NCBI GenBank assembly: GCA_014871385.1
Contig: CM026429.1
Coordinates: 8,923,075-8,987,074 of the forward strand
Reading direction: 5' to 3'
Source of the DNA: Ceratodon purpureus
Lineage: Eukaryota; Streptophyta; Bryopsida; Pseudoditrichales; Ditrichaceae
DNA length: 64,000 bases
The notes under the pieces were generated by a model. The model was not told where the DNA came from, searched no databases, and worked only from the letters and a program-made list of their open reading frames with translations. How positions within the stretch are numbered: the stretch's first letter is position 1; every line of letters starts with the position of its first letter. A program made the translations under genes and the position numbers. Shown here in pieces: positions 30,612 through 63,188 of this stretch.

Positions 30612-31160
30612 ACCCTGTTTCAAGAGGAAAGGGTAAAGTAACTCCAACTTCTCCATATTCTTGTGGATTCTTCCCTTGAAGTGATCATCAAGTCGTTGGT
30701 GGGCAACTGTTTTACAACATGCAGAACAAAAGAAATCTTCATCTTCCCCCAATATCAAATCTTGACCACTTGGTAGGGTACTATTCTTCAGAGGTCGTTT
30801 AGATGGTCATTTTTCCTCTTCTTGCTCGCCTCTCGCATAAAGCAAGTGAATAAAACGCATTAAAAAAACTTCTCAAGTATATTTCTCAAAATCCAAAGAA
30901 GAAAAGGACTCTTAAAGGTTCCTAAAAAAAAGAAAAACAGTGAAAAAATGAATCTACTTTACTTTGAATATGTAAAAACAATGTAATTTTAAGGACTTAT
31001 TGTATAAAGACTTTAAGCGACTTATGGTATAAAGACTTTAAAGGACTTATCATATAAAGACGATAAACGGCTTATTGCATAAAGACTTTAACGGACTTAT
31101 TGTATAAAGGCTTTCAAAAGACTTCTTGCACAAAGACTTCAAAAGACTTAATTCACGAAC
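30612..31160 (-). repeat. leftmost partial satellite unit
   Basis: Contains the zinc-finger-side half of the open frame and a full spacer; the splice-donor-side half is missing. The break falls within the codons for LLKQG. Confidence 0.9.
30991..31149. repeat. nested 25-bp minisatellite (first of 26 occurrences)
   Basis: Six diverged copies of a unit like AAGGACTTATTGTATAAAGA plus CTTT, then a partial copy. The same block lies in every spacer at 1,044-bp intervals. Its internal units differ from each other much more than the same position differs between satellite units, so this minisatellite is older than the amplification of the 1,044-bp unit. Confidence 0.9.
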
Positions 31161-31850
31161 TTACCTTCCAATCATATTGTGGCTATGGCGAAAACCGTGG
31201 CACATCATTCTAGTGCTACCTTTTATTCTTTCCTTCTTGTCATCCTTCCTCACAGCATTACCATTTTTGGCAAGGTATAATGCCAAAGTAGTCATCTCGT
31301 TAACATCATTCTCACTGAATTCTCCATTAACAATTTGAAGAAGAAATTCATTTGCACCATTGGATAGGATAGTGGTTGGCCATGCCAACTTCTCATAATC
31401 TCCAACCGCTGCAGGTAAATCAAAGTTCTTCCAAAACTTCTTGGTCTGCTTTGCTCCTTGGTTGCCATAAATAACCTTTGGTACCTGAGAACCTCTGTAA
31501 GCTAATGGTGATGGAGCAAGATAAACATGTTGAACAGTACGCAAGTGTTTTTTGGAACACATGAAGTTTAAACAGTTCATAATTTGCCGGCAAATTCTCC
31601 CTTTGGCAGCACTCCTTGTCACACCAGAAACCCTTCTCCCTTCCATCCAACTCAGACCCTGTTTCAAGAGGAAAGGGTAAAGTAACTCCAACTTCTCCAT
31701 ATTCTTGTGGATTCTTCCCTTGAAGTGATCATCAAGTCGTTGGTGGGCAACTGTTTTACAACATGCAGAACAAAAGAAATCTTCATCTTCCCCCAATATC
31801 AAATCTTGACCACTTGGTAGGGTACTATTCTTCAGAGGTCGTTTAGATGG
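31161..31850 (-). CDS. zinc-finger exon-like frame, representative of 25 full copies
   Basis: Open on the minus strand from just after TGA (31853-31851) to a TAA at the end. It has no ATG before the zinc finger: the first in-frame ATG is in KNMEKLEL, after the finger, so translation would need an upstream exon. Counting from LILGEDEDFF (31802) the finger is C11-x2-C14-x11-H26-x5-H32 (CSACCKTVAHQRLDDHFKG..H), like U1-type or CGGBP1-type C2H2 fingers. The rest (residues 40-213, ending TRMMCHGFRHSHN) is not recognised. The stop is formed by AAG-GTAAGT, a near-consensus 5' splice site (around 31161-31167), so the frame looks like an internal exon of a larger gene. It may encode a DNA- or RNA-binding protein fragment or a transposon-related protein; function unknown. 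Confidence 0.5.
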   Translation of the reverse strand, partial: PSKRPLKNSTLPSGQDLILGEDEDFFCSACCKTVAHQRLDDHFKGRIHKNMEKLELLYPFLLKQGLSWMEGRRVSGVTRSAAKGRICRQIMNCLNFMCSKKHLRTVQHVYLAPSPLAYRGSQVPKVIYGNQGAKQTKKFWKNFDLPAAVGDYEKLAWPTTILSNGANEFLLQIVNGEFSENDVNEMTTLALYLAKNGNAVRKDDKKERIKGSTRMMCHGFRHSHNMIGR

Positions 31851-33248
31851 TCATTTTTCCTCTTCTTGCTCGCCTCTCGCATAAAGCAAGTGAATAAAAC
31901 GCATTAAAAAAACTTCTCAAGTATATTTCTCAAAATCCAAAGAAGAAAAGGACTCTTAAAGGTTCCTAAAAAAAAGAAAAACAGTGAAAAAATGAATCTA
32001 CTTTACTTTGAATATGTAAAAACAATGTAATTTTAAGGACTTATTGTATAAAGACTTTAAGCGACTTATGGTATAAAGACTTTAAAGGACTTATCATATA
32101 AAGACGATAAACGGCTTATTGCATAAAGACTTTAACGGACTTATTGTATAAAGGCTTTCAAAAGACTTCTTGCACAAAGACTTCAAAAGACTTAATTCAC
32201 GAACTTACCTTCCAATCATATTGTGGCTATGGCGAAAACCGTGGCACATCATTCTAGTGCTACCTTTTATTCTTTCCTTCTTGTCATCCTTCCTCACAGC
32301 ATTACCATTTTTGGCAAGGTATAATGCCAAAGTAGTCATCTCGTTAACATCATTCTCACTGAATTCTCCATTAACAATTTGAAGAAGAAATTCATTTGCA
32401 CCATTGGATAGGATAGTGGTTGGCCATGCCAACTTCTCATAATCTCCAACCGCTGCAGGTAAATCAAAGTTCTTCCAAAACTTCTTGGTCTGCTTTGCTC
32501 CTTGGTTGCCATAAATAACCTTTGGTACCTGAGAACCTCTGTAAGCTAATGGTGATGGAGCAAGATAAACATGTTGAACAGTACGCAAGTGTTTTTTGGA
32601 ACACATGAAGTTTAAGCAGTTCATAATTTGCCGGCAAATTCTCCCTTTGGCAGCACTCCTTGTCACACCAGAAACCCTTCTCCCTTCCATCCAACTCAGA
32701 CCCTGTTTCAAGAGGAAAGGGTAAAGTAACTCCAACTTCTCCATATTCTTGTGGATTCTTCCCTTGAAGTGATCATCAAGTCGTTGGTGGGCAACTGTTT
32801 TACAACATGCAGAACAAAAGAAATCTTCATCTTCCCCCAATATCAAATCTTGACCACTTGGTAGGGTACTATTCTTCAGAGGTCGTTTAGATGGTCATTT
32901 TTCCTCTTCTTGCTCGCCTCTCGCATAAAGCAAGTGAATAAAACGCATTAAAAAAACTTCTCAAGTATATTTCTCAAAATCCAAAGAAGAAAAGGACTCT
33001 TAAAGGTTCCTAAAAAAAAGAAAAACAGTGAAAAAATGAATCTACTTTACTTTGAATATGTAAAAACAATGTAATTTTAAGGACTTATTGTATAAAGACT
33101 TTAAGCGACTTATGGTATAAAGACTTTAAAGGACTTATCATATAAAGACGATAAACGGCTTATTGCATAAAGACTTTAACGGACTTATTGTATAAAGGCT
33201 TTCAAAAGACTTCTTGCACAAAGACTTCAAAAGACTTAATTCACGAAC
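31161..33248 (-). repeat. satellite copies 1-2
   Basis: Variant state: Val in SENDVNEM and Met in HSHNMIGR. Copy 1 alone has TTTAAACAG where all other copies have TTTAAGCAG (near 31567). Confidence 0.9.
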
Positions 33249-34292
33249 TTACCTTCCAATCACATTGTGGCTATGGCGAAAACCGTGGCACATCATTCTA
33301 GTGCTACCTTTTATTCTTTCCTTCTTGTCATCCTTCCTCACAGCATTACCATTTTTGGCAAGGTATAATGCCAAAGTAGTCATCTCGTTAGCATCATTCT
33401 CACTGAATTCTCCATTAACAATTTGAAGAAGAAATTCATTTGCACCATTGGATAGGATAGTGGTTGGCCATGCCAACTTCTCATAATCTCCAACCGCTGC
33501 AGGTAAATCAAAGTTCTTCCAAAACTTCTTGGTCTGCTTTGCTCCTTGGTTGTCATAAATAACCTTTGGTACCTGAGAACCTCTGTAAGCTAATGGTGAT
33601 GGAGCAAGATAAACATGTTGAACAGTACGCAAGTGTTTTTTGGAACACATGAAGTTTAAGCAGTTCATAATTTGCCGGCAAATTCTCCCTTTGGCAGCAC
33701 TCCTTGTCACACCAGAAACCCTTCTCCCTTCCATCCAACTCAGACCCTGTTTCAAGAGGAAAGGGTAAAGTAACTCCAACTTCTCCATATTCTTGTGGAT
33801 TCTTCCCTTGAAGTGATCATCAAGTCGTTGGTGGGCAACTGTTTTACAACATGCAGAACAAAAGAAATCTTCATCTTCCCCCAATATCAAATCTTGACCA
33901 CTTGGTAGGGTACTATTCTTCAGAGGTCGTTTAGATGGTCATTTTTCCTCTTCTTGCTCGCCTCTCGCATAAAGCAAGTGAATAAAACGCATTAAAAAAA
34001 CTTCTCAAGTATATTTCTCAAAATCCAAAGAAGAAAAGGACTCTTAAAGGTTCCTAAAAAAAAGAAAAACAGTGAAAAAATGAATCTACTTTACTTTGAA
34101 TATGTAAAAACAATGTAATTTTAAGGACTTATTGTATAAAGACTTTAAGCGACTTATGGTATAAAGACTTTAAAGGACTTATCATATAAAGACGATAAAC
34201 GGCTTATTGCATAAAGACTTTAACGGACTTATTGTATAAAGGCTTTCAAAAGACTTCTTGCACAAAGACTTCAAAAGACTTAATTCACGAAC
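33249..34292 (-). repeat. satellite copy 3
   Basis: Variant state: Ala (SENDANEM), Val (HSHNVIGR), and a private change giving IYDNQG instead of IYGNQG (GTTGTCAT near 33551). Confidence 0.9.
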
Positions 34293-37200
34293 TTACCTTC
34301 CAATCACATTGTGGCTATGGCGAAAACCGTGGCACATCATTCTAGTGCTACCTTTTATTCTTTCCTTCTTGTCATCCTTCCTCACAGCATTACCATTTTT
34401 GGCAAGGTATAATGCCAAAGTAGTCATCTCGTTAACATCATTCTCACTGAATTCTCCATTAACAATTTGAAGAAGAAATTCATTTGCACCATTGGATAGG
34501 ATAGTGGTTGGCCATGCCAACTTCTCATAATCTCCAACCGCTGCAGGTAAATCAAAGTTCTTCCAAAACTTCTTGGTCTGCTTTGCTCCTTGGTTGCCAT
34601 AAATAACCTTTGGTACCTGAGAACCTCTGTAAGCTAATGGTGATGGAGCAAGATAAACATGTTGAACAGTACGCAAGTGTTTTTTGGAACACATGAAGTT
34701 TAAGCAGTTCATAATTTGCCGGCAAATTCTCCCTTTGGCAGCACTCCTTGTCACACCAGAAACCCTTCTCCCTTCCATCCAACTCAGACCCTGTTTCAAG
34801 AGGAAAGGGTAAAGTAACTCCAACTTCTCCATATTCTTGTGGATTCTTCCCTTGAAGTGATCATCAAGTCGTTGGTGGGCAACTGTTTTACAACATGCAG
34901 AACAAAAGAAATCTTCATCTTCCCCCAATATCAAATCTTGACCACTTGGTAGGGTACTATTCTTCAGAGGTCGTTTAGATGGTCATTTTTCCTCTTCTTG
35001 CTCGCCTCTCGCATAAAGCAAGTGAATAAAACGCATTAAAAAAACTTCTCAAGTATATTTCTCAAAATCCAAAGAAGAAAAGGACTCTTAAAGGTTCCTA
35101 AAAAAAAGAAAAACAGTGAAAAAATGAATCTACTTTACTTTGAATATGTAAAAACAATGTAATTTTAAGGACTTATTGTATAAAGACTTTAAGCGACTTA
35201 TGGTATAAAGACTTTAAAGGACTTATCATATAAAGACGATAAACGGCTTATTGCATAAAGACTTTAACGGACTTATTGTATAAAGGCTTTCAAAAGACTT
35301 CTTGCACAAAGACTTCAAAAGACTTAATTCACGAACTTACCTTCCAATCACATTGTGGCTATGGCGAAAACCGTGGCACATCATTCTAGTGCTACCTTTT
35401 ATTCTTTCCTTCTTGTCATCCTTCCTCACAGCATTACCATTTTTGGCAAGGTATAATGCCAAAGTAGTCATCTCGTTAACATCATTCTCACTGAATTCTC
35501 CATTAACAATTTGAAGAAGAAATTCATTTGCACCATTGGATAGGATAGTGGTTGGCCATGCCAACTTCTCATAATCTCCAACCGCTGCAGGTAAATCAAA
35601 GTTCTTCCAAAACTTCTTGGTCTGCTTTGCTCCTTGGTTGCCATAAATAACCTTTGGTACCTGAGAACCTCTGTAAGCTAATGGTGATGGAGCAAGATAA
35701 ACATGTTGAACAGTACGCAAGTGTTTTTTGGAACACATGAAGTTTAAGCAGTTCATAATTTGCCGGCAAATTCTCCCTTTGGCAGCACTCCTTGTCACAC
35801 CAGAAACCCTTCTCCCTTCCATCCAACTCAGACCCTGTTTCAAGAGGAAAGGGTAAAGTAACTCCAACTTCTCCATATTCTTGTGGATTCTTCCCTTGAA
35901 GTGATCATCAAGTCGTTGGTGGGCAACTGTTTTACAACATGCAGAACAAAAGAAATCTTCATCTTCCCCCAATATCAAATCTTGACCACTTGGTAGGGTA
36001 CTATTCTTCAGAGGTCGTTTAGATGGTCATTTTTCCTCTTCTTGCTCGCCTCTCGCATAAAGCAAGTGAATAAAACGCATTAAAAAAACTTCTCAAGTAT
36101 ATTTCTCAAAATCCAAAGAAGAAAAGGACTCTTAAAGGTTCCTAAAAAAAAGAAAAACAGTGAAAAAATGAATCTACTTTACTTTGAATATGTAAAAACA
36201 ATGTAATTTTAAGGACTTATTGTATAAAGACTTTAAGCGACTTATGGTATAAAGACTTTAAAGGACTTATCATATAAAGACGATAAACGGCTTATTGCAT
36301 AAAGACTTTAACGGACTTATTGTATAAAGGCTTTCAAAAGACTTCTTGCACAAAGACTTCAAAAGACTTAATTCACGAACTTACCTTCCAATCACATTGT
36401 GGCTATGGCGAAAACCGTGGCACATCATTCTAGTGCTACCTTTTATTCTTTCCTTCTTGTCATCCTTCCTCACAGCATTACCATTTTTGGCAAGGTATAA
36501 TGCCAAAGTAGTCATCTCGTTAACATCATTCTCACTGAATTCTCCATTAACAATTTGAAGAAGAAATTCATTTGCACCATTGGATAGGATAGTGGTTGGC
36601 CATGCCAACTTCTCATAATCTCCAACCGCTGCAGGTAAATCAAAGTTCTTCCAAAACTTCTTGGTCTGCTTTGCTCCTTGGTTGCCATAAATAACCTTTG
36701 GTACCTGAGAACCTCTGTAAGCTAATGGTGATGGAGCAAGATAAACATGTTGAACAGTACGCAAGTGTTTTTTGGAACACATGAAGTTTAAGCAGTTCAT
36801 AATTTGCCGGCAAATTCTCCCTTTGGCAGCACTCCTTGTCACACCAGAAACCCTTCTCCCTTCCATCCAACTCAGACCCTGTTTCAAGAGGAAAGGGTAA
36901 AGTAACTCCAACTTCTCCATATTCTTGTGGATTCTTCCCTTGAAGTGATCATCAAGTCGTTGGTGGGCAACTGTTTTACAACATGCAGAACAAAAGAAAT
37001 CTTCATCTTCCCCCAATATCAAATCTTGACCACTTGGTAGGGTACTATTCTTCAGAGGTCGTTTAGATGGTCATTTTTCCTCTTCTTGCTCGCCTCTCGC
37101 ATAAAGCAAGTGAATAAAACGCATTAAAAAAACTTCTCAAGTATATTTCTCAAAATCCAAAGAAGAAAAGGACTCTTAAAGGTTCCTAAAAAAAAGAAAA

Positions 37201-40200
37201 ACAGTGAAAAAATGAATCTACTTTACTTTGAATATGTAAAAACAATGTAATTTTAAGGACTTATTGTATAAAGACTTTAAGCGACTTATGGTATAAAGAC
37301 TTTAAAGGACTTATCATATAAAGACGATAAACGGCTTATTGCATAAAGACTTTAACGGACTTATTGTATAAAGGCTTTCAAAAGACTTCTTGCACAAAGA
37401 CTTCAAAAGACTTAATTCACGAACTTACCTTCCAATCACATTGTGGCTATGGCGAAAACCGTGGCACATCATTCTAGTGCTACCTTTTATTCTTTCCTTC
37501 TTGTCATCCTTCCTCACAGCATTACCATTTTTGGCAAGGTATAATGCCAAAGTAGTCATCTCGTTAACATCATTCTCACTGAATTCTCCATTAACAATTT
37601 GAAGAAGAAATTCATTTGCACCATTGGATAGGATAGTGGTTGGCCATGCCAACTTCTCATAATCTCCAACCGCTGCAGGTAAATCAAAGTTCTTCCAAAA
37701 CTTCTTGGTCTGCTTTGCTCCTTGGTTGCCATAAATAACCTTTGGTACCTGAGAACCTCTGTAAGCTAATGGTGATGGAGCAAGATAAACATGTTGAACA
37801 GTACGCAAGTGTTTTTTGGAACACATGAAGTTTAAGCAGTTCATAATTTGCCGGCAAATTCTCCCTTTGGCAGCACTCCTTGTCACACCAGAAACCCTTC
37901 TCCCTTCCATCCAACTCAGACCCTGTTTCAAGAGGAAAGGGTAAAGTAACTCCAACTTCTCCATATTCTTGTGGATTCTTCCCTTGAAGTGATCATCAAG
38001 TCGTTGGTGGGCAACTGTTTTACAACATGCAGAACAAAAGAAATCTTCATCTTCCCCCAATATCAAATCTTGACCACTTGGTAGGGTACTATTCTTCAGA
38101 GGTCGTTTAGATGGTCATTTTTCCTCTTCTTGCTCGCCTCTCGCATAAAGCAAGTGAATAAAACGCATTAAAAAAACTTCTCAAGTATATTTCTCAAAAT
38201 CCAAAGAAGAAAAGGACTCTTAAAGGTTCCTAAAAAAAAGAAAAACAGTGAAAAAATGAATCTACTTTACTTTGAATATGTAAAAACAATGTAATTTTAA
38301 GGACTTATTGTATAAAGACTTTAAGCGACTTATGGTATAAAGACTTTAAAGGACTTATCATATAAAGACGATAAACGGCTTATTGCATAAAGACTTTAAC
38401 GGACTTATTGTATAAAGGCTTTCAAAAGACTTCTTGCACAAAGACTTCAAAAGACTTAATTCACGAACTTACCTTCCAATCACATTGTGGCTATGGCGAA
38501 AACCGTGGCACATCATTCTAGTGCTACCTTTTATTCTTTCCTTCTTGTCATCCTTCCTCACAGCATTACCATTTTTGGCAAGGTATAATGCCAAAGTAGT
38601 CATCTCGTTAACATCATTCTCACTGAATTCTCCATTAACAATTTGAAGAAGAAATTCATTTGCACCATTGGATAGGATAGTGGTTGGCCATGCCAACTTC
38701 TCATAATCTCCAACCGCTGCAGGTAAATCAAAGTTCTTCCAAAACTTCTTGGTCTGCTTTGCTCCTTGGTTGCCATAAATAACCTTTGGTACCTGAGAAC
38801 CTCTGTAAGCTAATGGTGATGGAGCAAGATAAACATGTTGAACAGTACGCAAGTGTTTTTTGGAACACATGAAGTTTAAGCAGTTCATAATTTGCCGGCA
38901 AATTCTCCCTTTGGCAGCACTCCTTGTCACACCAGAAACCCTTCTCCCTTCCATCCAACTCAGACCCTGTTTCAAGAGGAAAGGGTAAAGTAACTCCAAC
39001 TTCTCCATATTCTTGTGGATTCTTCCCTTGAAGTGATCATCAAGTCGTTGGTGGGCAACTGTTTTACAACATGCAGAACAAAAGAAATCTTCATCTTCCC
39101 CCAATATCAAATCTTGACCACTTGGTAGGGTACTATTCTTCAGAGGTCGTTTAGATGGTCATTTTTCCTCTTCTTGCTCGCCTCTCGCATAAAGCAAGTG
39201 AATAAAACGCATTAAAAAAACTTCTCAAGTATATTTCTCAAAATCCAAAGAAGAAAAGGACTCTTAAAGGTTCCTAAAAAAAAGAAAAACAGTGAAAAAA
39301 TGAATCTACTTTACTTTGAATATGTAAAAACAATGTAATTTTAAGGACTTATTGTATAAAGACTTTAAGCGACTTATGGTATAAAGACTTTAAAGGACTT
39401 ATCATATAAAGACGATAAACGGCTTATTGCATAAAGACTTTAACGGACTTATTGTATAAAGGCTTTCAAAAGACTTCTTGCACAAAGACTTCAAAAGACT
39501 TAATTCACGAACTTACCTTCCAATCACATTGTGGCTATGGCGAAAACCGTGGCACATCATTCTAGTGCTACCTTTTATTCTTTCCTTCTTGTCATCCTTC
39601 CTCACAGCATTACCATTTTTGGCAAGGTATAATGCCAAAGTAGTCATCTCGTTAACATCATTCTCACTGAATTCTCCATTAACAATTTGAAGAAGAAATT
39701 CATTTGCACCATTGGATAGGATAGTGGTTGGCCATGCCAACTTCTCATAATCTCCAACCGCTGCAGGTAAATCAAAGTTCTTCCAAAACTTCTTGGTCTG
39801 CTTTGCTCCTTGGTTGCCATAAATAACCTTTGGTACCTGAGAACCTCTGTAAGCTAATGGTGATGGAGCAAGATAAACATGTTGAACAGTACGCAAGTGT
39901 TTTTTGGAACACATGAAGTTTAAGCAGTTCATAATTTGCCGGCAAATTCTCCCTTTGGCAGCACTCCTTGTCACACCAGAAACCCTTCTCCCTTCCATCC
40001 AACTCAGACCCTGTTTCAAGAGGAAAGGGTAAAGTAACTCCAACTTCTCCATATTCTTGTGGATTCTTCCCTTGAAGTGATCATCAAGTCGTTGGTGGGC
40101 AACTGTTTTACAACATGCAGAACAAAAGAAATCTTCATCTTCCCCCAATATCAAATCTTGACCACTTGGTAGGGTACTATTCTTCAGAGGTCGTTTAGAT

Positions 40201-43200
40201 GGTCATTTTTCCTCTTCTTGCTCGCCTCTCGCATAAAGCAAGTGAATAAAACGCATTAAAAAAACTTCTCAAGTATATTTCTCAAAATCCAAAGAAGAAA
40301 AGGACTCTTAAAGGTTCCTAAAAAAAAGAAAAACAGTGAAAAAATGAATCTACTTTACTTTGAATATGTAAAAACAATGTAATTTTAAGGACTTATTGTA
40401 TAAAGACTTTAAGCGACTTATGGTATAAAGACTTTAAAGGACTTATCATATAAAGACGATAAACGGCTTATTGCATAAAGACTTTAACGGACTTATTGTA
40501 TAAAGGCTTTCAAAAGACTTCTTGCACAAAGACTTCAAAAGACTTAATTCACGAACTTACCTTCCAATCACATTGTGGCTATGGCGAAAACCGTGGCACA
40601 TCATTCTAGTGCTACCTTTTATTCTTTCCTTCTTGTCATCCTTCCTCACAGCATTACCATTTTTGGCAAGGTATAATGCCAAAGTAGTCATCTCGTTAAC
40701 ATCATTCTCACTGAATTCTCCATTAACAATTTGAAGAAGAAATTCATTTGCACCATTGGATAGGATAGTGGTTGGCCATGCCAACTTCTCATAATCTCCA
40801 ACCGCTGCAGGTAAATCAAAGTTCTTCCAAAACTTCTTGGTCTGCTTTGCTCCTTGGTTGCCATAAATAACCTTTGGTACCTGAGAACCTCTGTAAGCTA
40901 ATGGTGATGGAGCAAGATAAACATGTTGAACAGTACGCAAGTGTTTTTTGGAACACATGAAGTTTAAGCAGTTCATAATTTGCCGGCAAATTCTCCCTTT
41001 GGCAGCACTCCTTGTCACACCAGAAACCCTTCTCCCTTCCATCCAACTCAGACCCTGTTTCAAGAGGAAAGGGTAAAGTAACTCCAACTTCTCCATATTC
41101 TTGTGGATTCTTCCCTTGAAGTGATCATCAAGTCGTTGGTGGGCAACTGTTTTACAACATGCAGAACAAAAGAAATCTTCATCTTCCCCCAATATCAAAT
41201 CTTGACCACTTGGTAGGGTACTATTCTTCAGAGGTCGTTTAGATGGTCATTTTTCCTCTTCTTGCTCGCCTCTCGCATAAAGCAAGTGAATAAAACGCAT
41301 TAAAAAAACTTCTCAAGTATATTTCTCAAAATCCAAAGAAGAAAAGGACTCTTAAAGGTTCCTAAAAAAAAGAAAAACAGTGAAAAAATGAATCTACTTT
41401 ACTTTGAATATGTAAAAACAATGTAATTTTAAGGACTTATTGTATAAAGACTTTAAGCGACTTATGGTATAAAGACTTTAAAGGACTTATCATATAAAGA
41501 CGATAAACGGCTTATTGCATAAAGACTTTAACGGACTTATTGTATAAAGGCTTTCAAAAGACTTCTTGCACAAAGACTTCAAAAGACTTAATTCACGAAC
41601 TTACCTTCCAATCACATTGTGGCTATGGCGAAAACCGTGGCACATCATTCTAGTGCTACCTTTTATTCTTTCCTTCTTGTCATCCTTCCTCACAGCATTA
41701 CCATTTTTGGCAAGGTATAATGCCAAAGTAGTCATCTCGTTAACATCATTCTCACTGAATTCTCCATTAACAATTTGAAGAAGAAATTCATTTGCACCAT
41801 TGGATAGGATAGTGGTTGGCCATGCCAACTTCTCATAATCTCCAACCGCTGCAGGTAAATCAAAGTTCTTCCAAAACTTCTTGGTCTGCTTTGCTCCTTG
41901 GTTGCCATAAATAACCTTTGGTACCTGAGAACCTCTGTAAGCTAATGGTGATGGAGCAAGATAAACATGTTGAACAGTACGCAAGTGTTTTTTGGAACAC
42001 ATGAAGTTTAAGCAGTTCATAATTTGCCGGCAAATTCTCCCTTTGGCAGCACTCCTTGTCACACCAGAAACCCTTCTCCCTTCCATCCAACTCAGACCCT
42101 GTTTCAAGAGGAAAGGGTAAAGTAACTCCAACTTCTCCATATTCTTGTGGATTCTTCCCTTGAAGTGATCATCAAGTCGTTGGTGGGCAACTGTTTTACA
42201 ACATGCAGAACAAAAGAAATCTTCATCTTCCCCCAATATCAAATCTTGACCACTTGGTAGGGTACTATTCTTCAGAGGTCGTTTAGATGGTCATTTTTCC
42301 TCTTCTTGCTCGCCTCTCGCATAAAGCAAGTGAATAAAACGCATTAAAAAAACTTCTCAAGTATATTTCTCAAAATCCAAAGAAGAAAAGGACTCTTAAA
42401 GGTTCCTAAAAAAAAGAAAAACAGTGAAAAAATGAATCTACTTTACTTTGAATATGTAAAAACAATGTAATTTTAAGGACTTATTGTATAAAGACTTTAA
42501 GCGACTTATGGTATAAAGACTTTAAAGGACTTATCATATAAAGACGATAAACGGCTTATTGCATAAAGACTTTAACGGACTTATTGTATAAAGGCTTTCA
42601 AAAGACTTCTTGCACAAAGACTTCAAAAGACTTAATTCACGAACTTACCTTCCAATCACATTGTGGCTATGGCGAAAACCGTGGCACATCATTCTAGTGC
42701 TACCTTTTATTCTTTCCTTCTTGTCATCCTTCCTCACAGCATTACCATTTTTGGCAAGGTATAATGCCAAAGTAGTCATCTCGTTAACATCATTCTCACT
42801 GAATTCTCCATTAACAATTTGAAGAAGAAATTCATTTGCACCATTGGATAGGATAGTGGTTGGCCATGCCAACTTCTCATAATCTCCAACCGCTGCAGGT
42901 AAATCAAAGTTCTTCCAAAACTTCTTGGTCTGCTTTGCTCCTTGGTTGCCATAAATAACCTTTGGTACCTGAGAACCTCTGTAAGCTAATGGTGATGGAG
43001 CAAGATAAACATGTTGAACAGTACGCAAGTGTTTTTTGGAACACATGAAGTTTAAGCAGTTCATAATTTGCCGGCAAATTCTCCCTTTGGCAGCACTCCT
43101 TGTCACACCAGAAACCCTTCTCCCTTCCATCCAACTCAGACCCTGTTTCAAGAGGAAAGGGTAAAGTAACTCCAACTTCTCCATATTCTTGTGGATTCTT

Positions 43201-45776: not shown

Positions 45777-48700
45777 TTACCTTCCAATCACATTGTGGCT
45801 ATGGCGAAAACCGTGGCACATCATTCTAGTGCTACCTTTTATTCTTTCCTTCTTGTCATCCTTCCTCACAGCATTACCATTTTTGGCAAGGTATAATGCC
45901 AAAGTAGTCATCTCGTTAGCATCATTCTCACTGAATTCTCCATTAACAATTTGAAGAAGAAATTCATTTGCACCATTGGATAGGATAGTGGTTGGCCATG
46001 CCAACTTCTCATAATCTCCAACCGCTGCAGGTAAATCAAAGTTCTTCCAAAACTTCTTGGTCTGCTTTGCTCCTTGGTTGCCATAAATAACCTTTGGTAC
46101 CTGAGAACCTCTGTAAGCTAATGGTGATGGAGCAAGATAAACATGTTGAACAGTACGCAAGTGTTTTTTGGAACACATGAAGTTTAAGCAGTTCATAATT
46201 TGCCGGCAAATTCTCCCTTTGGCAGCACTCCTTGTCACACCAGAAACCCTTCTCCCTTCCATCCAACTCAGACCCTGTTTCAAGAGGAAAGGGTAAAGTA
46301 ACTCCAACTTCTCCATATTCTTGTGGATTCTTCCCTTGAAGTGATCATCAAGTCGTTGGTGGGCAACTGTTTTACAACATGCAGAACAAAAGAAATCTTC
46401 ATCTTCCCCCAATATCAAATCTTGACCACTTGGTAGGGTACTATTCTTCAGAGGTCGTTTAGATGGTCATTTTTCCTCTTCTTGCTCGCCTCTCGCATAA
46501 AGCAAGTGAATAAAACGCATTAAAAAAACTTCTCAAGTATATTTCTCAAAATCCAAAGAAGAAAAGGACTCTTAAAGGTTCCTAAAAAAAAGAAAAACAG
46601 TGAAAAAATGAATCTACTTTACTTTGAATATGTAAAAACAATGTAATTTTAAGGACTTATTGTATAAAGACTTTAAGCGACTTATGGTATAAAGACTTTA
46701 AAGGACTTATCATATAAAGACGATAAACGGCTTATTGCATAAAGACTTTAACGGACTTATTGTATAAAGGCTTTCAAAAGACTTCTTGCACAAAGACTTC
46801 AAAAGACTTAATTCACGAACTTACCTTCCAATCACATTGTGGCTATGGCGAAAACCGTGGCACATCATTCTAGTGCTACCTTTTATTCTTTCCTTCTTGT
46901 CATCCTTCCTCACAGCATTACCATTTTTGGCAAGGTATAATGCCAAAGTAGTCATCTCGTTAGCATCATTCTCACTGAATTCTCCATTAACAATTTGAAG
47001 AAGAAATTCATTTGCACCATTGGATAGGATAGTGGTTGGCCATGCCAACTTCTCATAATCTCCAACCGCTGCAGGTAAATCAAAGTTCTTCCAAAACTTC
47101 TTGGTCTGCTTTGCTCCTTGGTTGCCATAAATAACCTTTGGTACCTGAGAACCTCTGTAAGCTAATGGTGATGGAGCAAGATAAACATGTTGAACAGTAC
47201 GCAAGTGTTTTTTGGAACACATGAAGTTTAAGCAGTTCATAATTTGCCGGCAAATTCTCCCTTTGGCAGCACTCCTTGTCACACCAGAAACCCTTCTCCC
47301 TTCCATCCAACTCAGACCCTGTTTCAAGAGGAAAGGGTAAAGTAACTCCAACTTCTCCATATTCTTGTGGATTCTTCCCTTGAAGTGATCATCAAGTCGT
47401 TGGTGGGCAACTGTTTTACAACATGCAGAACAAAAGAAATCTTCATCTTCCCCCAATATCAAATCTTGACCACTTGGTAGGGTACTATTCTTCAGAGGTC
47501 GTTTAGATGGTCATTTTTCCTCTTCTTGCTCGCCTCTCGCATAAAGCAAGTGAATAAAACGCATTAAAAAAACTTCTCAAGTATATTTCTCAAAATCCAA
47601 AGAAGAAAAGGACTCTTAAAGGTTCCTAAAAAAAAGAAAAACAGTGAAAAAATGAATCTACTTTACTTTGAATATGTAAAAACAATGTAATTTTAAGGAC
47701 TTATTGTATAAAGACTTTAAGCGACTTATGGTATAAAGACTTTAAAGGACTTATCATATAAAGACGATAAACGGCTTATTGCATAAAGACTTTAACGGAC
47801 TTATTGTATAAAGGCTTTCAAAAGACTTCTTGCACAAAGACTTCAAAAGACTTAATTCACGAACTTACCTTCCAATCACATTGTGGCTATGGCGAAAACC
47901 GTGGCACATCATTCTAGTGCTACCTTTTATTCTTTCCTTCTTGTCATCCTTCCTCACAGCATTACCATTTTTGGCAAGGTATAATGCCAAAGTAGTCATC
48001 TCGTTAGCATCATTCTCACTGAATTCTCCATTAACAATTTGAAGAAGAAATTCATTTGCACCATTGGATAGGATAGTGGTTGGCCATGCCAACTTCTCAT
48101 AATCTCCAACCGCTGCAGGTAAATCAAAGTTCTTCCAAAACTTCTTGGTCTGCTTTGCTCCTTGGTTGCCATAAATAACCTTTGGTACCTGAGAACCTCT
48201 GTAAGCTAATGGTGATGGAGCAAGATAAACATGTTGAACAGTACGCAAGTGTTTTTTGGAACACATGAAGTTTAAGCAGTTCATAATTTGCCGGCAAATT
48301 CTCCCTTTGGCAGCACTCCTTGTCACACCAGAAACCCTTCTCCCTTCCATCCAACTCAGACCCTGTTTCAAGAGGAAAGGGTAAAGTAACTCCAACTTCT
48401 CCATATTCTTGTGGATTCTTCCCTTGAAGTGATCATCAAGTCGTTGGTGGGCAACTGTTTTACAACATGCAGAACAAAAGAAATCTTCATCTTCCCCCAA
48501 TATCAAATCTTGACCACTTGGTAGGGTACTATTCTTCAGAGGTCGTTTAGATGGTCATTTTTCCTCTTCTTGCTCGCCTCTCGCATAAAGCAAGTGAATA
48601 AAACGCATTAAAAAAACTTCTCAAGTATATTTCTCAAAATCCAAAGAAGAAAAGGACTCTTAAAGGTTCCTAAAAAAAAGAAAAACAGTGAAAAAATGAA

Positions 48701-48908
48701 TCTACTTTACTTTGAATATGTAAAAACAATGTAATTTTAAGGACTTATTGTATAAAGACTTTAAGCGACTTATGGTATAAAGACTTTAAAGGACTTATCA
48801 TATAAAGACGATAAACGGCTTATTGCATAAAGACTTTAACGGACTTATTGTATAAAGGCTTTCAAAAGACTTCTTGCACAAAGACTTCAAAAGACTTAAT
48901 TCACGAAC
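45777..48908 (-). repeat. satellite copies 15-17
   Basis: Three units with the Ala/Val state. Confidence 0.88.
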
Positions 48909-49952
48909 TTACCTTCCAATCACATTGTGGCTATGGCGAAAACCGTGGCACATCATTCTAGTGCTACCTTTTATTCTTTCCTTCTTGTCATCCTTCCTCA
49001 CAGCATTACCATTTTTGGCAAGGTATAATGCCAAAGTAGTCATCTCGTTAACATCATTCTCACTGAATTCTCCATTAACAATTTGAAGAAGAAATTCATT
49101 TGCACCATTGGATAGGATAGTGGTTGGCCATGCCAACTTCTCATAATCTCCAACCGCTGCAGGTAAATCAAAGTTCTTCCAAAACTTCTTGGTCTGCTTT
49201 GCTCCTTGGTTGCCATAAATAACCTTTGGTACCTGAGAACCTCTGTAAGCTAATGGTGATGGAGCAAGATAAACATGTTGAACAGTACGCAAGTGTTTTT
49301 TGGAACACATGAAGTTTAAGCAGTTCATAATTTGCCGGCAAATTCTCCCTTTGGCAGCACTCCTTGTCACACCAGAAACCCTTCTCCCTTCCATCCAACT
49401 CAGACCCTGTTTCAAGAGGAAAGGGTAAAGTAACTCCAACTTCTCCATATTCTTGTGGATTCTTCCCTTGAAGTGATCATCAAGTCGTTGGTGGGCAACT
49501 GTTTTACAACATGCAGAACAAAAGAAATCTTCATCTTCCCCCAATATCAAATCTTGACCACTTGGTAGGGTACTATTCTTCAGAGGTCGTTTAGATGGTC
49601 ATTTTTCCTCTTCTTGCTCGCCTCTCGCATAAAGCAAGTGAATAAAACGCATTAAAAAAACTTCTCAAGTATATTTCTCAAAATCCAAAGAAGAAAAGGA
49701 CTCTTAAAGGTTCCTAAAAAAAAGAAAAACAGTGAAAAAATGAATCTACTTTACTTTGAATATGTAAAAACAATGTAATTTTAAGGACTTATTGTATAAA
49801 GACTTTAAGCGACTTATGGTATAAAGACTTTAAAGGACTTATCATATAAAGACGATAAACGGCTTATTGCATAAAGACTTTAACGGACTTATTGTATAAA
49901 GGCTTTCAAAAGACTTCTTGCACAAAGACTTCAAAAGACTTAATTCACGAAC
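48909..49952 (-). repeat. satellite copy 18
   Basis: A single Val/Val unit, like copies 4-14, between Ala-type blocks. Confidence 0.88.
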
Positions 49953-52900
49953 TTACCTTCCAATCATATTGTGGCTATGGCGAAAACCGTGGCACATCAT
50001 TCTAGTGCTACCTTTTATTCTTTCCTTCTTGTCATCCTTCCTCACAGCATTACCATTTTTGGCAAGGTATAATGCCAAAGTAGTCATCTCGTTAGCATCA
50101 TTCTCACTGAATTCTCCATTAACAATTTGAAGAAGAAATTCATTTGCACCATTGGATAGGATAGTGGTTGGCCATGCCAACTTCTCATAATCTCCAACCG
50201 CTGCAGGTAAATCAAAGTTCTTCCAAAACTTCTTGGTCTGCTTTGCTCCTTGGTTGCCATAAATAACCTTTGGTACCTGAGAACCTCTGTAAGCTAATGG
50301 TGATGGAGCAAGATAAACATGTTGAACAGTACGCAAGTGTTTTTTGGAACACATGAAGTTTAAGCAGTTCATAATTTGCCGGCAAATTCTCCCTTTGGCA
50401 GCACTCCTTGTCACACCAGAAACCCTTCTCCCTTCCATCCAACTCAGACCCTGTTTCAAGAGGAAAGGGTAAAGTAACTCCAACTTCTCCATATTCTTGT
50501 GGATTCTTCCCTTGAAGTGATCATCAAGTCGTTGGTGGGCAACTGTTTTACAACATGCAGAACAAAAGAAATCTTCATCTTCCCCCAATATCAAATCTTG
50601 ACCACTTGGTAGGGTACTATTCTTCAGAGGTCGTTTAGATGGTCATTTTTCCTCTTCTTGCTCGCCTCTCGCATAAAGCAAGTGAATAAAACGCATTAAA
50701 AAAACTTCTCAAGTATATTTCTCAAAATCCAAAGAAGAAAAGGACTCTTAAAGGTTCCTAAAAAAAAGAAAAACAGTGAAAAAATGAATCTACTTTACTT
50801 TGAATATGTAAAAACAATGTAATTTTAAGGACTTATTGTATAAAGACTTTAAGCGACTTATGGTATAAAGACTTTAAAGGACTTATCATATAAAGACGAT
50901 AAACGGCTTATTGCATAAAGACTTTAACGGACTTATTGTATAAAGGCTTTCAAAAGACTTCTTGCACAAAGACTTCAAAAGACTTAATTCACGAACTTAC
51001 CTTCCAATCATATTGTGGCTATGGCGAAAACCGTGGCACATCATTCTAGTGCTACCTTTTATTCTTTCCTTCTTGTCATCCTTCCTCACAGCATTACCAT
51101 TTTTGGCAAGGTATAATGCCAAAGTAGTCATCTCGTTAGCATCATTCTCACTGAATTCTCCATTAACAATTTGAAGAAGAAATTCATTTGCACCATTGGA
51201 TAGGATAGTGGTTGGCCATGCCAACTTCTCATAATCTCCAACCGCTGCAGGTAAATCAAAGTTCTTCCAAAACTTCTTGGTCTGCTTTGCTCCTTGGTTG
51301 CCATAAATAACCTTTGGTACCTGAGAACCTCTGTAAGCTAATGGTGATGGAGCAAGATAAACATGTTGAACAGTACGCAAGTGTTTTTTGGAACACATGA
51401 AGTTTAAGCAGTTCATAATTTGCCGGCAAATTCTCCCTTTGGCAGCACTCCTTGTCACACCAGAAACCCTTCTCCCTTCCATCCAACTCAGACCCTGTTT
51501 CAAGAGGAAAGGGTAAAGTAACTCCAACTTCTCCATATTCTTGTGGATTCTTCCCTTGAAGTGATCATCAAGTCGTTGGTGGGCAACTGTTTTACAACAT
51601 GCAGAACAAAAGAAATCTTCATCTTCCCCCAATATCAAATCTTGACCACTTGGTAGGGTACTATTCTTCAGAGGTCGTTTAGATGGTCATTTTTCCTCTT
51701 CTTGCTCGCCTCTCGCATAAAGCAAGTGAATAAAACGCATTAAAAAAACTTCTCAAGTATATTTCTCAAAATCCAAAGAAGAAAAGGACTCTTAAAGGTT
51801 CCTAAAAAAAAGAAAAACAGTGAAAAAATGAATCTACTTTACTTTGAATATGTAAAAACAATGTAATTTTAAGGACTTATTGTATAAAGACTTTAAGCGA
51901 CTTATGGTATAAAGACTTTAAAGGACTTATCATATAAAGACGATAAACGGCTTATTGCATAAAGACTTTAACGGACTTATTGTATAAAGGCTTTCAAAAG
52001 ACTTCTTGCACAAAGACTTCAAAAGACTTAATTCACGAACTTACCTTCCAATCATATTGTGGCTATGGCGAAAACCGTGGCACATCATTCTAGTGCTACC
52101 TTTTATTCTTTCCTTCTTGTCATCCTTCCTCACAGCATTACCATTTTTGGCAAGGTATAATGCCAAAGTAGTCATCTCGTTAGCATCATTCTCACTGAAT
52201 TCTCCATTAACAATTTGAAGAAGAAATTCATTTGCACCATTGGATAGGATAGTGGTTGGCCATGCCAACTTCTCATAATCTCCAACCGCTGCAGGTAAAT
52301 CAAAGTTCTTCCAAAACTTCTTGGTCTGCTTTGCTCCTTGGTTGCCATAAATAACCTTTGGTACCTGAGAACCTCTGTAAGCTAATGGTGATGGAGCAAG
52401 ATAAACATGTTGAACAGTACGCAAGTGTTTTTTGGAACACATGAAGTTTAAGCAGTTCATAATTTGCCGGCAAATTCTCCCTTTGGCAGCACTCCTTGTC
52501 ACACCAGAAACCCTTCTCCCTTCCATCCAACTCAGACCCTGTTTCAAGAGGAAAGGGTAAAGTAACTCCAACTTCTCCATATTCTTGTGGATTCTTCCCT
52601 TGAAGTGATCATCAAGTCGTTGGTGGGCAACTGTTTTACAACATGCAGAACAAAAGAAATCTTCATCTTCCCCCAATATCAAATCTTGACCACTTGGTAG
52701 GGTACTATTCTTCAGAGGTCGTTTAGATGGTCATTTTTCCTCTTCTTGCTCGCCTCTCGCATAAAGCAAGTGAATAAAACGCATTAAAAAAACTTCTCAA
52801 GTATATTTCTCAAAATCCAAAGAAGAAAAGGACTCTTAAAGGTTCCTAAAAAAAAGAAAAACAGTGAAAAAATGAATCTACTTTACTTTGAATATGTAAA

Positions 52901-54128
52901 AACAATGTAATTTTAAGGACTTATTGTATAAAGACTTTAAGCGACTTATGGTATAAAGACTTTAAAGGACTTATCATATAAAGACGATAAACGGCTTATT
53001 GCATAAAGACTTTAACGGACTTATTGTATAAAGGCTTTCAAAAGACTTCTTGCACAAAGACTTCAAAAGACTTAATTCACGAACTTACCTTCCAATCATA
53101 TTGTGGCTATGGCGAAAACCGTGGCACATCATTCTAGTGCTACCTTTTATTCTTTCCTTCTTGTCATCCTTCCTCACAGCATTACCATTTTTGGCAAGGT
53201 ATAATGCCAAAGTAGTCATCTCGTTAGCATCATTCTCACTGAATTCTCCATTAACAATTTGAAGAAGAAATTCATTTGCACCATTGGATAGGATAGTGGT
53301 TGGCCATGCCAACTTCTCATAATCTCCAACCGCTGCAGGTAAATCAAAGTTCTTCCAAAACTTCTTGGTCTGCTTTGCTCCTTGGTTGCCATAAATAACC
53401 TTTGGTACCTGAGAACCTCTGTAAGCTAATGGTGATGGAGCAAGATAAACATGTTGAACAGTACGCAAGTGTTTTTTGGAACACATGAAGTTTAAGCAGT
53501 TCATAATTTGCCGGCAAATTCTCCCTTTGGCAGCACTCCTTGTCACACCAGAAACCCTTCTCCCTTCCATCCAACTCAGACCCTGTTTCAAGAGGAAAGG
53601 GTAAAGTAACTCCAACTTCTCCATATTCTTGTGGATTCTTCCCTTGAAGTGATCATCAAGTCGTTGGTGGGCAACTGTTTTACAACATGCAGAACAAAAG
53701 AAATCTTCATCTTCCCCCAATATCAAATCTTGACCACTTGGTAGGGTACTATTCTTCAGAGGTCGTTTAGATGGTCATTTTTCCTCTTCTTGCTCGCCTC
53801 TCGCATAAAGCAAGTGAATAAAACGCATTAAAAAAACTTCTCAAGTATATTTCTCAAAATCCAAAGAAGAAAAGGACTCTTAAAGGTTCCTAAAAAAAAG
53901 AAAAACAGTGAAAAAATGAATCTACTTTACTTTGAATATGTAAAAACAATGTAATTTTAAGGACTTATTGTATAAAGACTTTAAGCGACTTATGGTATAA
54001 AGACTTTAAAGGACTTATCATATAAAGACGATAAACGGCTTATTGCATAAAGACTTTAACGGACTTATTGTATAAAGGCTTTCAAAAGACTTCTTGCACA
54101 AAGACTTCAAAAGACTTAATTCACGAAC
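49953..54128 (-). repeat. satellite copies 19-22
   Basis: Four units with the Ala/Met state. Confidence 0.88.
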
Positions 54129-55172
54129 TTACCTTCCAATCACATTGTGGCTATGGCGAAAACCGTGGCACATCATTCTAGTGCTACCTTTTATTCTTTC
54201 CTTCTTGTCATCCTTCCTCACAGCATTACCATTTTTGGCAAGGTATAATGCCAAAGTAGTCATCTCGTTAGCATCATTCTCACTGAATTCTCCATTAACA
54301 ATTTGAAGAAGAAATTCATTTGCACCATTGGATAGGATAGTGGTTGGCCATGCCAACTTCTCATAATCTCCAACCGCTGCAGGTAAATCAAAGTTCTTCC
54401 AAAACTTCTTGGTCTGCTTTGCTCCTTGGTTGCCATAAATAACCTTTGGTACCTGAGAACCTCTGTAAGCTAATGGTGATGGAGCAAGATAAACATGTTG
54501 AACAGTACGCAAGTGTTTTTTGGAACACATGAAGTTTAAGCAGTTCATAATTTGCCGGCAAATTCTCCCTTTGGCAGCACTCCTTGTCACACCAGAAACC
54601 CTTCTCCCTTCCATCCAACTCAGACCCTGTTTCAAGAGGAAAGGGTAAAGTAACTCCAACTTCTCCATATTCTTGTGGATTCTTCCCTTGAAGTGATCAT
54701 CAAGTCGTTGGTGGGCAACTGTTTTACAACATGCAGAACAAAAGAAATCTTCATCTTCCCCCAATATCAAATCTTGACCACTTGGTAGGGTACTATTCTT
54801 CAGAGGTCGTTTAGATGGTCATTTTTCCTCTTCTTGCTCGCCTCTCGCATAAAGCAAGTGAATAAAACGCATTAAAAAAACTTCTCAAGTATATTTCTCA
54901 AAATCCAAAGAAGAAAAGGACTCTTAAAGGTTCCTAAAAAAAAGAAAAACAGTGAAAAAATGAATCTACTTTACTTTGAATATGTAAAAACAATGTAATT
55001 TTAAGGACTTATTGTATAAAGACTTTAAGCGACTTATGGTATAAAGACTTTAAAGGACTTATCATATAAAGACGATAAACGGCTTATTGCATAAAGACTT
55101 TAACGGACTTATTGTATAAAGGCTTTCAAAAGACTTCTTGCACAAAGACTTCAAAAGACTTAATTCACGAAC
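54129..55172 (-). repeat. satellite copy 23
   Basis: A single Ala/Val unit, as in copies 15-17. Confidence 0.88.
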
Positions 55173-57260
55173 TTACCTTCCAATCATATTGTGGCTGTGG
55201 CGAAAACCGTGGCACATCATTCTAGTGCTACCTTTTATTCTTTCCTTCTTGTCATCCTTCCTCACAGCATTACCATTTTTGGCAAGGTATAATGCCAAAG
55301 TAGTCATCTCGTTAGCATCATTCTCACTGAATTCTCCATTAACAATTTGAAGAAGAAATTCATTTGCACCATTGGATAGGATAGTGGTTGGCCATGCCAA
55401 CTTCTCATAATCTCCAACCGCTGCAGGTAAATCAAAGTTCTTCCAAAACTTCTTGGTCTGCTTTGCTCCTTGGTTGCCATAAATAACCTTTGGTACCTGA
55501 GAACCTCTGTAAGCTAATGGTGATGGAGCAAGATAAACATGTTGAACAGTACGCAAGTGTTTTTTGGAACACATGAAGTTTAAGCAGTTCATAATTTGCC
55601 GGCAAATTCTCCCTTTGGCAGCACTCCTTGTCACACCAGAAACCCTTCTCCCTTCCATCCAACTCAGACCCTGTTTCAAGAGGAAAGGGTAAAGTAACTC
55701 CAACTTCTCCATATTCTTGTGGATTCTTCCCTTGAAGTGATCATCAAGTCGTTGGTGGGCAACTGTTTTACAACATGCAGAACAAAAGAAATCTTCATCT
55801 TCCCCCAATATCAAATCTTGACCACTTGGTAGGGTACTATTCTTCAGAGGTCGTTTAGATGGTCATTTTTCCTCTTCTTGCTCGCCTCTCGCATAAAGCA
55901 AGTGAATAAAACGCATTAAAAAAACTTCTCAAGTATATTTCTCAAAATCCAAAGAAGAAAAGGACTCTTAAAGGTTCCTAAAAAAAAGAAAAACAGTGAA
56001 AAAATGAATCTACTTTACTTTGAATATGTAAAAACAATGTAATTTTAAGGACTTATTGTATAAAGACTTTAAGCGACTTATGGTATAAAGACTTTAAAGG
56101 ACTTATCATATAAAGACGATAAACGGCTTATTGCATAAAGACTTTAACGGACTTATTGTATAAAGGCTTTCAAAAGACTTCTTGCACAAAGACTTCAAAA
56201 GACTTAATTCACGAACTTACCTTCCAATCATATTGTGGCTGTGGCGAAAACCGTGGCACATCATTCTAGTGCTACCTTTTATTCTTTCCTTCTTGTCATC
56301 CTTCCTCACAGCATTACCATTTTTGGCAAGGTATAATGCCAAAGTAGTCATCTCGTTAGCATCATTCTCACTGAATTCTCCATTAACAATTTGAAGAAGA
56401 AATTCATTTGCACCATTGGATAGGATAGTGGTTGGCCATGCCAACTTCTCATAATCTCCAACCGCTGCAGGTAAATCAAAGTTCTTCCAAAACTTCTTGG
56501 TCTGCTTTGCTCCTTGGTTGCCATAAATAACCTTTGGTACCTGAGAACCTCTGTAAGCTAATGGTGATGGAGCAAGATAAACATGTTGAACAGTACGCAA
56601 GTGTTTTTTGGAACACATGAAGTTTAAGCAGTTCATAATTTGCCGGCAAATTCTCCCTTTGGCAGCACTCCTTGTCACACCAGAAACCCTTCTCCCTTCC
56701 ATCCAACTCAGACCCTGTTTCAAGAGGAAAGGGTAAAGTAACTCCAACTTCTCCATATTCTTGTGGATTCTTCCCTTGAAGTGATCATCAAGTCGTTGGT
56801 GGGCAACTGTTTTACAACATGCAGAACAAAAGAAATCTTCATCTTCCCCCAATATCAAATCTTGACCACTTGGTAGGGTACTATTCTTCAGAGGTCGTTT
56901 AGATGGTCATTTTTCCTCTTCTTGCTCGCCTCTCGCATAAAGCAAGTGAATAAAACGCATTAAAAAAACTTCTCAAGTATATTTCTCAAAATCCAAAGAA
57001 GAAAAGGACTCTTAAAGGTTCCTAAAAAAAAGAAAAACAGTGAAAAAATGAATCTACTTTACTTTGAATATGTAAAAACAATGTAATTTTAAGGACTTAT
57101 TGTATAAAGACTTTAAGCGACTTATGGTATAAAGACTTTAAAGGACTTATCATATAAAGACGATAAACGGCTTATTGCATAAAGACTTTAACGGACTTAT
57201 TGTATAAAGGCTTTCAAAAGACTTCTTGCACAAAGACTTCAAAAGACTTAATTCACGAAC
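55173..57260 (-). repeat. satellite copies 24-25
   Basis: Ala/Met state plus a shared silent change (GTGGCTGTGG instead of GTGGCTATGG, at about 55191-55200 and 56235-56244) found nowhere else. Confidence 0.9.
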
Positions 57261-57535
57261 TTACCTTCCAATCATATTGTGGCTATGGCGAAAACCGTGG
57301 CACATCATTCTAGTGCTACCTTTTATTCTTTCCTTCTTGTCATCCTTCCTCACAGCATTACCATTTTTGGCAAGGTATAATGCCAAAGTAGTCATCTCGT
57401 TAACATCATTCTCACTGAATTCTTCATTAACAATTTGAAGAAGAAATTCATTTGCATCATTGGATAGGATAGTGGTTGGCCATGCCAACTTCTCATAATC
57501 TCCAACCGCTGCAGGTAAATCAAAGTTCTTCCAAA
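57261..57535 (-). repeat. satellite copy 26, truncated and most diverged
   Basis: Only the splice-donor end of the frame remains. It has private changes (TTCTTCATTAAC, TTTGCATCATT; protein IVNEEFSEND, LSNDANEF) with the Val/Met state of copies 1-2. Confidence 0.9.
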
Positions 57536-57646
57536 TTCAGATCTCTAATAGTATTGAAGCAGATTTTTCATTAGTGGAATTCACACACTGATACCTCTGA
57601 GCTGGTCGCAGGAGTTCTTGCGTGGGATGGCATGCACATCAGTTGA
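57536..57646. other. junction between satellite array and TPR gene
   Basis: About 110 bp of unique sequence. An ATG at 57627 opens MACTSVELRN and then stops one base out of the TPR gene frame; an ATG at 57632 is in that frame but stops at 57644. No start codon for the TPR gene is therefore visible here. Confidence 0.5.
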
Positions 57647-62322: not shown

Positions 62323-63188
62323 GATTATCCCGTGCAACTGCGAACCTTATATATTAATTTTTTAACAACTCTAGAACCTCGACGTAGGCTAGTCATTCCT
62401 GTGCTCACTTATAATACACCCCATGAATGGTTTTATCATTGCCGTGATCGCAGATCTCTCTCTTTTTGCAACTAATAGTTCTCAAATGTAATGTCACACG
62501 AGTCGTTTGTACTTAAGACCCTCTCCGAAAGGACATGTTAGACTGTATACCGCAGTCTTGAATTTTCATTTAATTGAGATCCCTGACAGTCGATGATTGT
62601 GTATACTGAGTTGATGCATGCCAGGCCAGTATTTTCAAGAGGTGCTGTTCCAAGCATATTCCAGAAAATGCCAAAATGTCCATGTCCATGACAAGGTACA
62701 AGGTGACGTAGGATGCCAAGGACCAAGTACATAATCAAGCGAGTGCAACTAATGGAGTAATATCCGTTCCAAGCCATAATCAGAATCCTTCTCAGTTTCA
62801 CAAGCATGAAACTGGTAGAGTAAGATATCTTCACGCTTCTCCATAATTGCACAATGGCCTCTATTAGAGGAAATATATGGACTACTGTTTTAAGGTGTCA
62901 AATACTTCTAATCTATCTTTACAACTTTAGATTTTATCAACATCTGGAATTACAGGTCGATCTCAAACATCAACACCCGCAGACCCTGATCCTGTCTGTC
63001 CTTCGAATATGTTTGATTGTCATGGTTTTGCGAAGGATATGCGGGATTGGTCACAAAGGCAAGGTACTTGTACATCCAAAAGCAGGCTACATACCAGATC
63101 CGCCATAGAAGAATATACCAAACTTGAGATATATTCAAGTGCGGAGCTGAAGTTCATCGAATTCTCACACGTTGTTGAGAGCTTCGAC
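62323..63188. other. intergenic region between the TPR and S1-like genes
   Basis: Holds the TPR gene 3' UTR and the S1-like gene promoter and leader. The in-frame extension of the S1 frame back to 63009 lacks a signal peptide at its start, so it is treated as leader. No other gene seen. Confidence 0.45.

Follow-up and report, generated by a model that had tools for sequence, protein, structure and literature searches.

How does a long and nearly uniform tandem array, built from a piece of a gene, come to lie in a moss chromosome, and does it still encode anything? The question is raised by a 64,000-nucleotide window of Ceratodon purpureus DNA (assembly GCA_014871385.1, contig CM026429.1, positions 8,923,075 to 8,987,074; hereafter C9:8923075-8987074, C9 being the contig that holds the array), in which a 1,044-bp unit is repeated over 27 kb. 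Positions given without a contig follow the numbering of this window. The explanation that we consider probable is that the array arose from a pseudogene exon by tandem duplication and unequal exchange, the exon being derived from a three-exon gene of TET/JBP-like type that is dispersed through the same genome.

Extent and anatomy of the array

Self-comparison of the window at a shift of 1,044 bp showed that positions 30612 to 57535 match without a break; the edges are sharp, and there is no insertion or deletion. The period is exactly 1,044 bp and the assembly sequence holds 25.79 copies, in agreement with the approximately 25.8 uninterrupted and nearly identical copies that an earlier note on this DNA had reported. 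The array is thus placed at 30612..57535, on the minus strand if the coding strand of the ancestral exon is followed, by both the self-shift and the comparison of copies. Its head-to-tail arrangement, a unit of about 1 kb or more, near identity and tens of copies are those of a macrosatellite, or long tandem repeat. Only seven sites vary among the 26 copies (unit positions 564, 574, 692, 713, 746, 854, and 961), and 12 of the 25 full copies are identical to the consensus, including an uninterrupted series of 11 (units 4-14). The variants are clustered along the array: site 692 gave 7 runs when a mean of 13.7 was expected (82 of 20,000 shuffles were as low), and site 564 gave 5 runs when 12.8 were expected (11 of 20,000). 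This clustering among neighbours fits unequal exchange and speaks against a plain assembly loop. A chance origin of the pattern is out of the question, and the array is confirmed as a real feature of the assembly, while its copy number in the organism is taken from that assembly alone. No second long array of the unit was present among the 43 genome matches listed, for which 39 of 56 candidates had been scored. At C5:17575715-17577170, two partial exon matches (77% and 80%) that share one orientation are separated by about 0.3 kb, and possibly form a tandem pair of exon pieces.

In gene direction, the unit consists of a minisatellite, an AT-rich spacer, an exon that we call exon 1, the first 13 bp of intron 1, and then the minisatellite again. 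In an example unit the pseudo-exon lies at 35341..36042 on the minus strand and recurs every 1,044 bp; about 700 bp of it are homologous to copies elsewhere in the genome, and it ends at a splice donor, AG|GTAAGT. The 13 bp of intron 1 occupy 35328..35340 (minus strand) and are followed by the minisatellite (35163..35326, minus strand), which has a 25-bp period and about 6.5 copies per unit. The AT-rich spacer (34999..35162, minus strand) separates the minisatellite from the exon in every unit. Both also stand upstream of the exon in an outlying piece to the right of the array, described below, which is probably the first copy. The step from position +13 of the intron to the minisatellite is, by its structure, the duplication junction. 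The final exon copy in gene direction, at 30612..30822 on the minus strand, is cut in mid-exon at 30612, and the flank below this position is unrelated and contains neither exon 2 nor exon 3.

A frame of 213 aa is open on the minus strand and present 25 times, as is the donor. Each frame contains one C-x2-C...H-x5-H motif, which we take to be zinc-finger-like. The Pfam scan of the unit frame gave zero matches at E up to 1, so that no oxygenase domain was seen in the unit either, and neither exon 2 nor exon 3 turned up in the 124 kb of C9 examined. This last result rules out an array of whole genes. A simple satellite is also ruled out, the unit being a piece of a gene, as the earlier note had held; it keeps a genuine exon end and is homologous to dispersed gene copies. 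The same note had described an open frame with a zinc finger and a donor. The frame, the donor and one finger-like motif are there; what the frame represents is a damaged exon, and Pfam recognizes nothing in it.

The dispersed parent family and the damage to the array exon

One unit was used as query against the whole assembly (362.5 Mb in 151 contigs). The 43 matches obtained are a lower bound, since 39 of 56 candidates were scored, and the array itself is not among them. At least 28 loci on 13 different contigs match the exon part, from query position 1 or 2 to at least 696, with 81-86% identity; the other matches among the 43 are one of 99%, located 51 kb to the right of the array, and 14 that are partial or weaker. 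Where a single-copy parent gene had been anticipated, there is therefore a dispersed family with at least 28 near-full copies of the exon. The unit is in this respect homologous to a dispersed repeat, a trait of satellites derived from mobile elements.

Eleven dispersed copies were opened, seven of them with 20 kb of context and four with 3-7 kb, and the exon of the unit could be aligned with all 11. The parent gene has three exons, which were joined in six of the seven larger loci. Two of these six joined copies, on C12 and C7, have unbroken frames of 429 and 423 codons, respectively (read back to the preceding stop), and the remaining four have broken frames. In the seventh larger locus, C10:12.08M, exons 2 and 3 were not found by pattern. 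At the smaller locus C10:13.77M all three exons were matched, but with stops; the segment C10:13772500-13779499 is a decayed full paralogue of the parent gene. The copies C6:108.78M and C1:24.03M are 97% alike and differ in stop codons placed at glutamine positions of exons 2 and 3, as C-to-T changes would give. Between the two intact copies, exon 1 showed a nonsynonymous divergence (dN) of 0.039 and a synonymous divergence (dS) of 0.212. The ratio of 0.18 indicates purifying selection, and both copies look selected for function.

With respect to what the parent gene encodes, the joined C12 protein (421 aa from the ATG) matched the Pfam Tet_JBP family with an E of 9.9e-5 and 22.1 bits, and its C-terminal 183 residues did so with an E of 2.3e-5 and 24.1 bits. 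Neither the protein nor its C-terminal part reached the curated cut-off of PF12851, 34.9 bits, and for this reason we use the label TET/JBP-like and do not file the protein as a member. Against solved structures, with E up to 10, the sole match of the C-terminal part was CMD1 of Chlamydomonas (PDB 7cy4), a weak one with an E of 0.0071. With the full-length protein CMD1 came first (E 0.042), followed by two methyltransferases that matched another part (E 0.16 and 0.22), all of them weak. The HxD motif and the distal histidine could nevertheless be aligned, PHTDEGD and IVHCSKT of the moss protein standing opposite HLD and IVHGTR of CMD1, so that the HxD...H arrangement is present. The iron ligands of CMD1 are His345, Asp347, and His397 (PMC7854593). 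CMD1 thus resembles the intact relative of the array as the best match of its oxygenase part, with the HxD and the distal histidine aligned; the differences are that the match is weak (E 0.0071) and that the array lacks the catalytic part. No finger profile matched, and the N-terminal fingers are read from the spacing of cysteines and histidines only. Taken together, the parent is best described as a TET/JBP-like oxygenase part of the 2-oxoglutarate- and iron-dependent type, 2OG-Fe(II), with a putative zinc-finger-like region at its N-terminus. When homologues of the 421-aa C12 protein were sought at E 0.001, one of 2,293 candidates matched: P0001, a protein of 243 aa with 91% identity across 58% of the query. 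Among the open-access papers listed, none dealt with this array or with moss genes of TET/JBP-like type.

The opened copies of the same exon served as the reference by which damage to the array exon was judged. In the array the start codon is lost and an in-frame TGA lies near the 5′ end. Where the second finger begins, one base is deleted, and one is inserted after the finger, which leaves about 27 residues read out of frame. The catalytic exons are absent from the unit, where only exon 1 is present, and all three minus-strand frames of the remaining unit contain stops. A coding role of the unit is in this way not supported, given the broken start codon, frame and second finger and the missing catalytic exons. 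Compared with the C12 copy, the unit had a dN of 0.127 and a dS of 0.366, and the ratio of 0.35 is in line with an exon that would once have been constrained and has now been released. The open frame of the array is, on these signs, the remains of a dead exon; no sign of a product was encountered, and the array is most likely without function and not translated into protein. The outlying partial copy carries the same start-codon loss and both indels, from which it follows that the damage preceded the amplification.

The means by which the family spread was also considered. The core common to the dispersed copies measures about 3 kb and includes the minisatellite, the gene and approximately 1 kb on the 3′ side. 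Three copies share extra 5′ sequence (C1/C12, 95.7% over 7.4 kb; C6/C1, 97.4% over 4.3 kb), and no common right terminus or element end was recognized around the dispersed copies. Open reading frames (ORFs) of CACTA/EnSpm type are found near both intact copies, on opposite sides, about 3 kb downstream in C12 and 6 kb upstream in C7. The segment C12:717000-736999 holds a Transposase_21 ORF (PF02992, E 1.5e-54) and a DUF4218 ORF (E 1.7e-32), and C7:17825000-17844999 holds a 40%-identical relative of this DUF4218 ORF. With two queries, no CACTA-type relative was detected at the five remaining loci opened with 20 kb, across the 124 kb of C9, or at C10:13772500-13779499. By eye, no transposase was seen at dispersed loci among ORFs of at least 130 aa in three of them. 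A search for KDZ transposases at E 0.001 had no match in the genome, but none of 14 control genomes was matched either. Fungal TET/JBP genes ride on many DNA transposons, EnSpm included, according to Kojima 2025 (PMC12730594). There, a TET/JBP-type oxygenase gene has many dispersed copies in one genome, as is the case here; in contrast, no element ends or shared transposase are established around the copies opened in the moss. Moss, Physcomitr, algae, Volvox and zinc finger go unmentioned in the text of PMC12730594. By this analogy, transposon carriage of TET/JBP-like genes in this genome would be a lead only.

Origin of the array and alternative explanations

The 99% match to the right of the array is a piece of 0.75 units at C9:9031383-9032162, outside the window, and runs from the minisatellite into mid-exon. 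Its first 600 bp are identical to the array unit at 600 of 600 positions. Upstream of it, the flank is colinear with C10:13.77M (87% over 1.9 kb, 75% over 1.0 kb, and 77% over 0.7 kb, the last being spacer and exon), and this colinear 5′ flank identifies the piece as the 5′ end of an ancestral gene copy. The 21 bp at the right edge of the array (57515..57535) recur, equally oriented, where the outlying piece begins (C9:9031383), and it is at this sequence that the piece stops in mid-exon. They form a direct duplication that flanks a block of 50,773 bp (C9:8980610-9031382), with genes and transposon remains, of which 57536..64000 falls in the window. By our own arithmetic, chance would place two unrelated cuts as close as this within a 1,044-bp unit about 1 time in 40. 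The outlying piece is probably the first array copy, cut off by the 50.8-kb block. It is likely, but not proved, that there was one array, and that the block broke it within its first copy, bringing a duplication of 21 bp such as a staggered break leaves. An inversion as source of the piece was ruled out by its orientation, and terminal repeats on the block were discarded after comparison of its first and last 6 kb, where only chance-level matches were obtained (best E 0.37). The block also contains a 722-bp sequence in two direct copies of 99.6% identity; both lie within transposase-like frames, one of 294 and one of 971 aa, which look hAT-like by eye.

Any account of the array has to accommodate the observed anatomy of the unit, its relation to the family, the damage to the exon, the clustered variants, the partial copy with its 5′ flank and the 21-bp duplication. 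In the sequence of events that we propose, a C9 copy of the dispersed three-exon gene would first have become a pseudogene, through loss of the start codon and of the reading frame. Tandem duplication would then have affected 1,044 bp of it, comprising the 5′ minisatellite, the AT spacer, exon 1 and 13 bp of intron 1. The array would have grown via unequal exchange between copies, and the block would have been inserted into the first copy after the array had formed. The order of these events, unequal exchange as the mechanism of growth, and the late arrival of the block are the parts that we infer. Several points weigh against this explanation. The lack of function is deduced from the exon damage alone, and the damaged frame is open for 213 codons in 25 of 25 complete exon copies, with 1,044 divisible by three. 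In its final 180 bp, which lie in the minisatellite, the outlying piece departs from the unit by several base changes and one gap, and the link between piece and array rests partly on the common 21 bp, with the chance closeness given above. Growth by rolling-circle re-integration would look much alike, and part of the array length could be an assembly effect.

Among the alternatives, the one that survives best, still an unlikely one, is amplification through an extrachromosomal circle: rolling-circle copies of the unit would have been put back into the chromosome, and the array would not have grown in place. The long runs of identical neighbouring copies would be expected from it, and there is a precedent in the clusters derived from the Bari1 transposon, for which an anomalous rolling-circle origin is described (PMC9659126). 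However, the 21 bp common to the array edge and to an outlying piece that keeps its 5′ flank fit better with one array cut at its original place.

Slightly less probable is that the assembler expanded a short true array, or shortened a longer one. Twenty-seven kilobases of 1-kb repeats are hard for error-prone reads, and 11 adjacent copies are identical. On the other hand, the variants are clustered, both edges are sharp and distinct in a window without any N base, and the junction of intron +13 with the minisatellite itself requires a tandem duplication.

A doubtful alternative gives the array a function as a silencing locus, whose transcription would yield small RNAs acting in trans on the dispersed TET/JBP-like genes, in the manner of repeat-derived small-RNA loci directed at transposons. 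Near-identical tandem repeats are typical sources of small RNAs; 114 of the 1,044 unit positions start a 21-mer that also occurs in one or more of the 11 opened loci (63 for 24-mers), and the longest exact match between the unit and a dispersed locus is 40 bases. Such sharing is nevertheless expected from the 81-86% identity alone. A stronger version, to which we give very little credence, would make the array a self-made control locus, in which a dead exon was multiplied and its small RNAs restrain the proliferating TET/JBP-like family in trans, as an immune memory against selfish demethylase genes.

Finally, a coding array, with the copies serving as successive exons of a single transcript or each encoding a short zinc-finger protein of one family, can hardly be maintained: the frame is open in every complete copy, the period preserves it and the donor is intact, but the lost start codon, the out-of-frame second finger, the TGA near the 5′ end and the stops in all three minus-strand frames of the remaining unit speak against it.

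Genomic surroundings and comparison with known systems

The array lies between genes, as had been noted earlier. A pectate lyase frame is located on its left (16138-16884; PF00544, E 2e-16), and a homologue of the plant self-incompatibility protein S1 on its right (63009-63599; PF05938, E 2.6e-20). A subtilase-like ORF of 821 aa, named by eye, is also found farther to the right of the array, and a remnant of a Tc1/mariner-type transposase is present at 4595-5185 (PF01498, E 8.4e-12).

The locus offers a young and cleanly bounded case of satellite birth, in which the 5′ flank, the probable first copy, the junction and the relatives can all be read, so that the passage from gene through pseudogene to array can be ordered step by step. 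It also exposes a dispersed family of TET/JBP-like oxygenases in a moss, two opened copies of which are apparently under selection. Plants are usually thought to remove methylcytosine by means of glycosylases and not by TET-type enzymes, and for this reason the family is the better target for study. The array is of interest mainly for the gene family from which it comes, its amplification looking recent and probably functionless.

Human macrosatellites are a natural term of comparison. The DUX4 repeat is named D4Z4, and the human DUX4 and RS447/USP17 units hold an intact frame, whereas the moss unit is a broken exon without its catalytic part. PMC2588610 describes these gene-bearing macrosatellites, with repeats of 3.3 kb for DUX4 and 4.7 kb for RS447/USP17; like the moss array, they have kilobase units with more than 99% identity, arranged head to tail and with coding sequence inside. 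Closer to the present case are rye E900, with a GAG-like frame, and chicken HinfI/CR1, which are presented in PMC9659126 as satellites from coding parts of mobile elements. In them, as here, the sequence amplified head to tail is a fragment of a dispersed element and takes in part of a coding frame; by contrast, the source in the moss is a TET/JBP-like exon with a splice donor, one long array was found, and neither a pericentromeric site nor mobility of the source is established. Plant satellites have also grown from short tandem arrays inside long terminal repeat (LTR) retrotransposons, according to PMC7004042. In both situations a repeat that stems from a dispersed element expanded locally, with the difference that a pre-existing short array was expanded there, whereas here the 1,044-bp unit appears to be new at the locus, where the 25-bp minisatellite alone had a tandem structure beforehand. 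There are thus precedents for arrays that come from coding parts of dispersed elements; what distinguishes the moss array is its unusual source and the unusual legibility of its birth.

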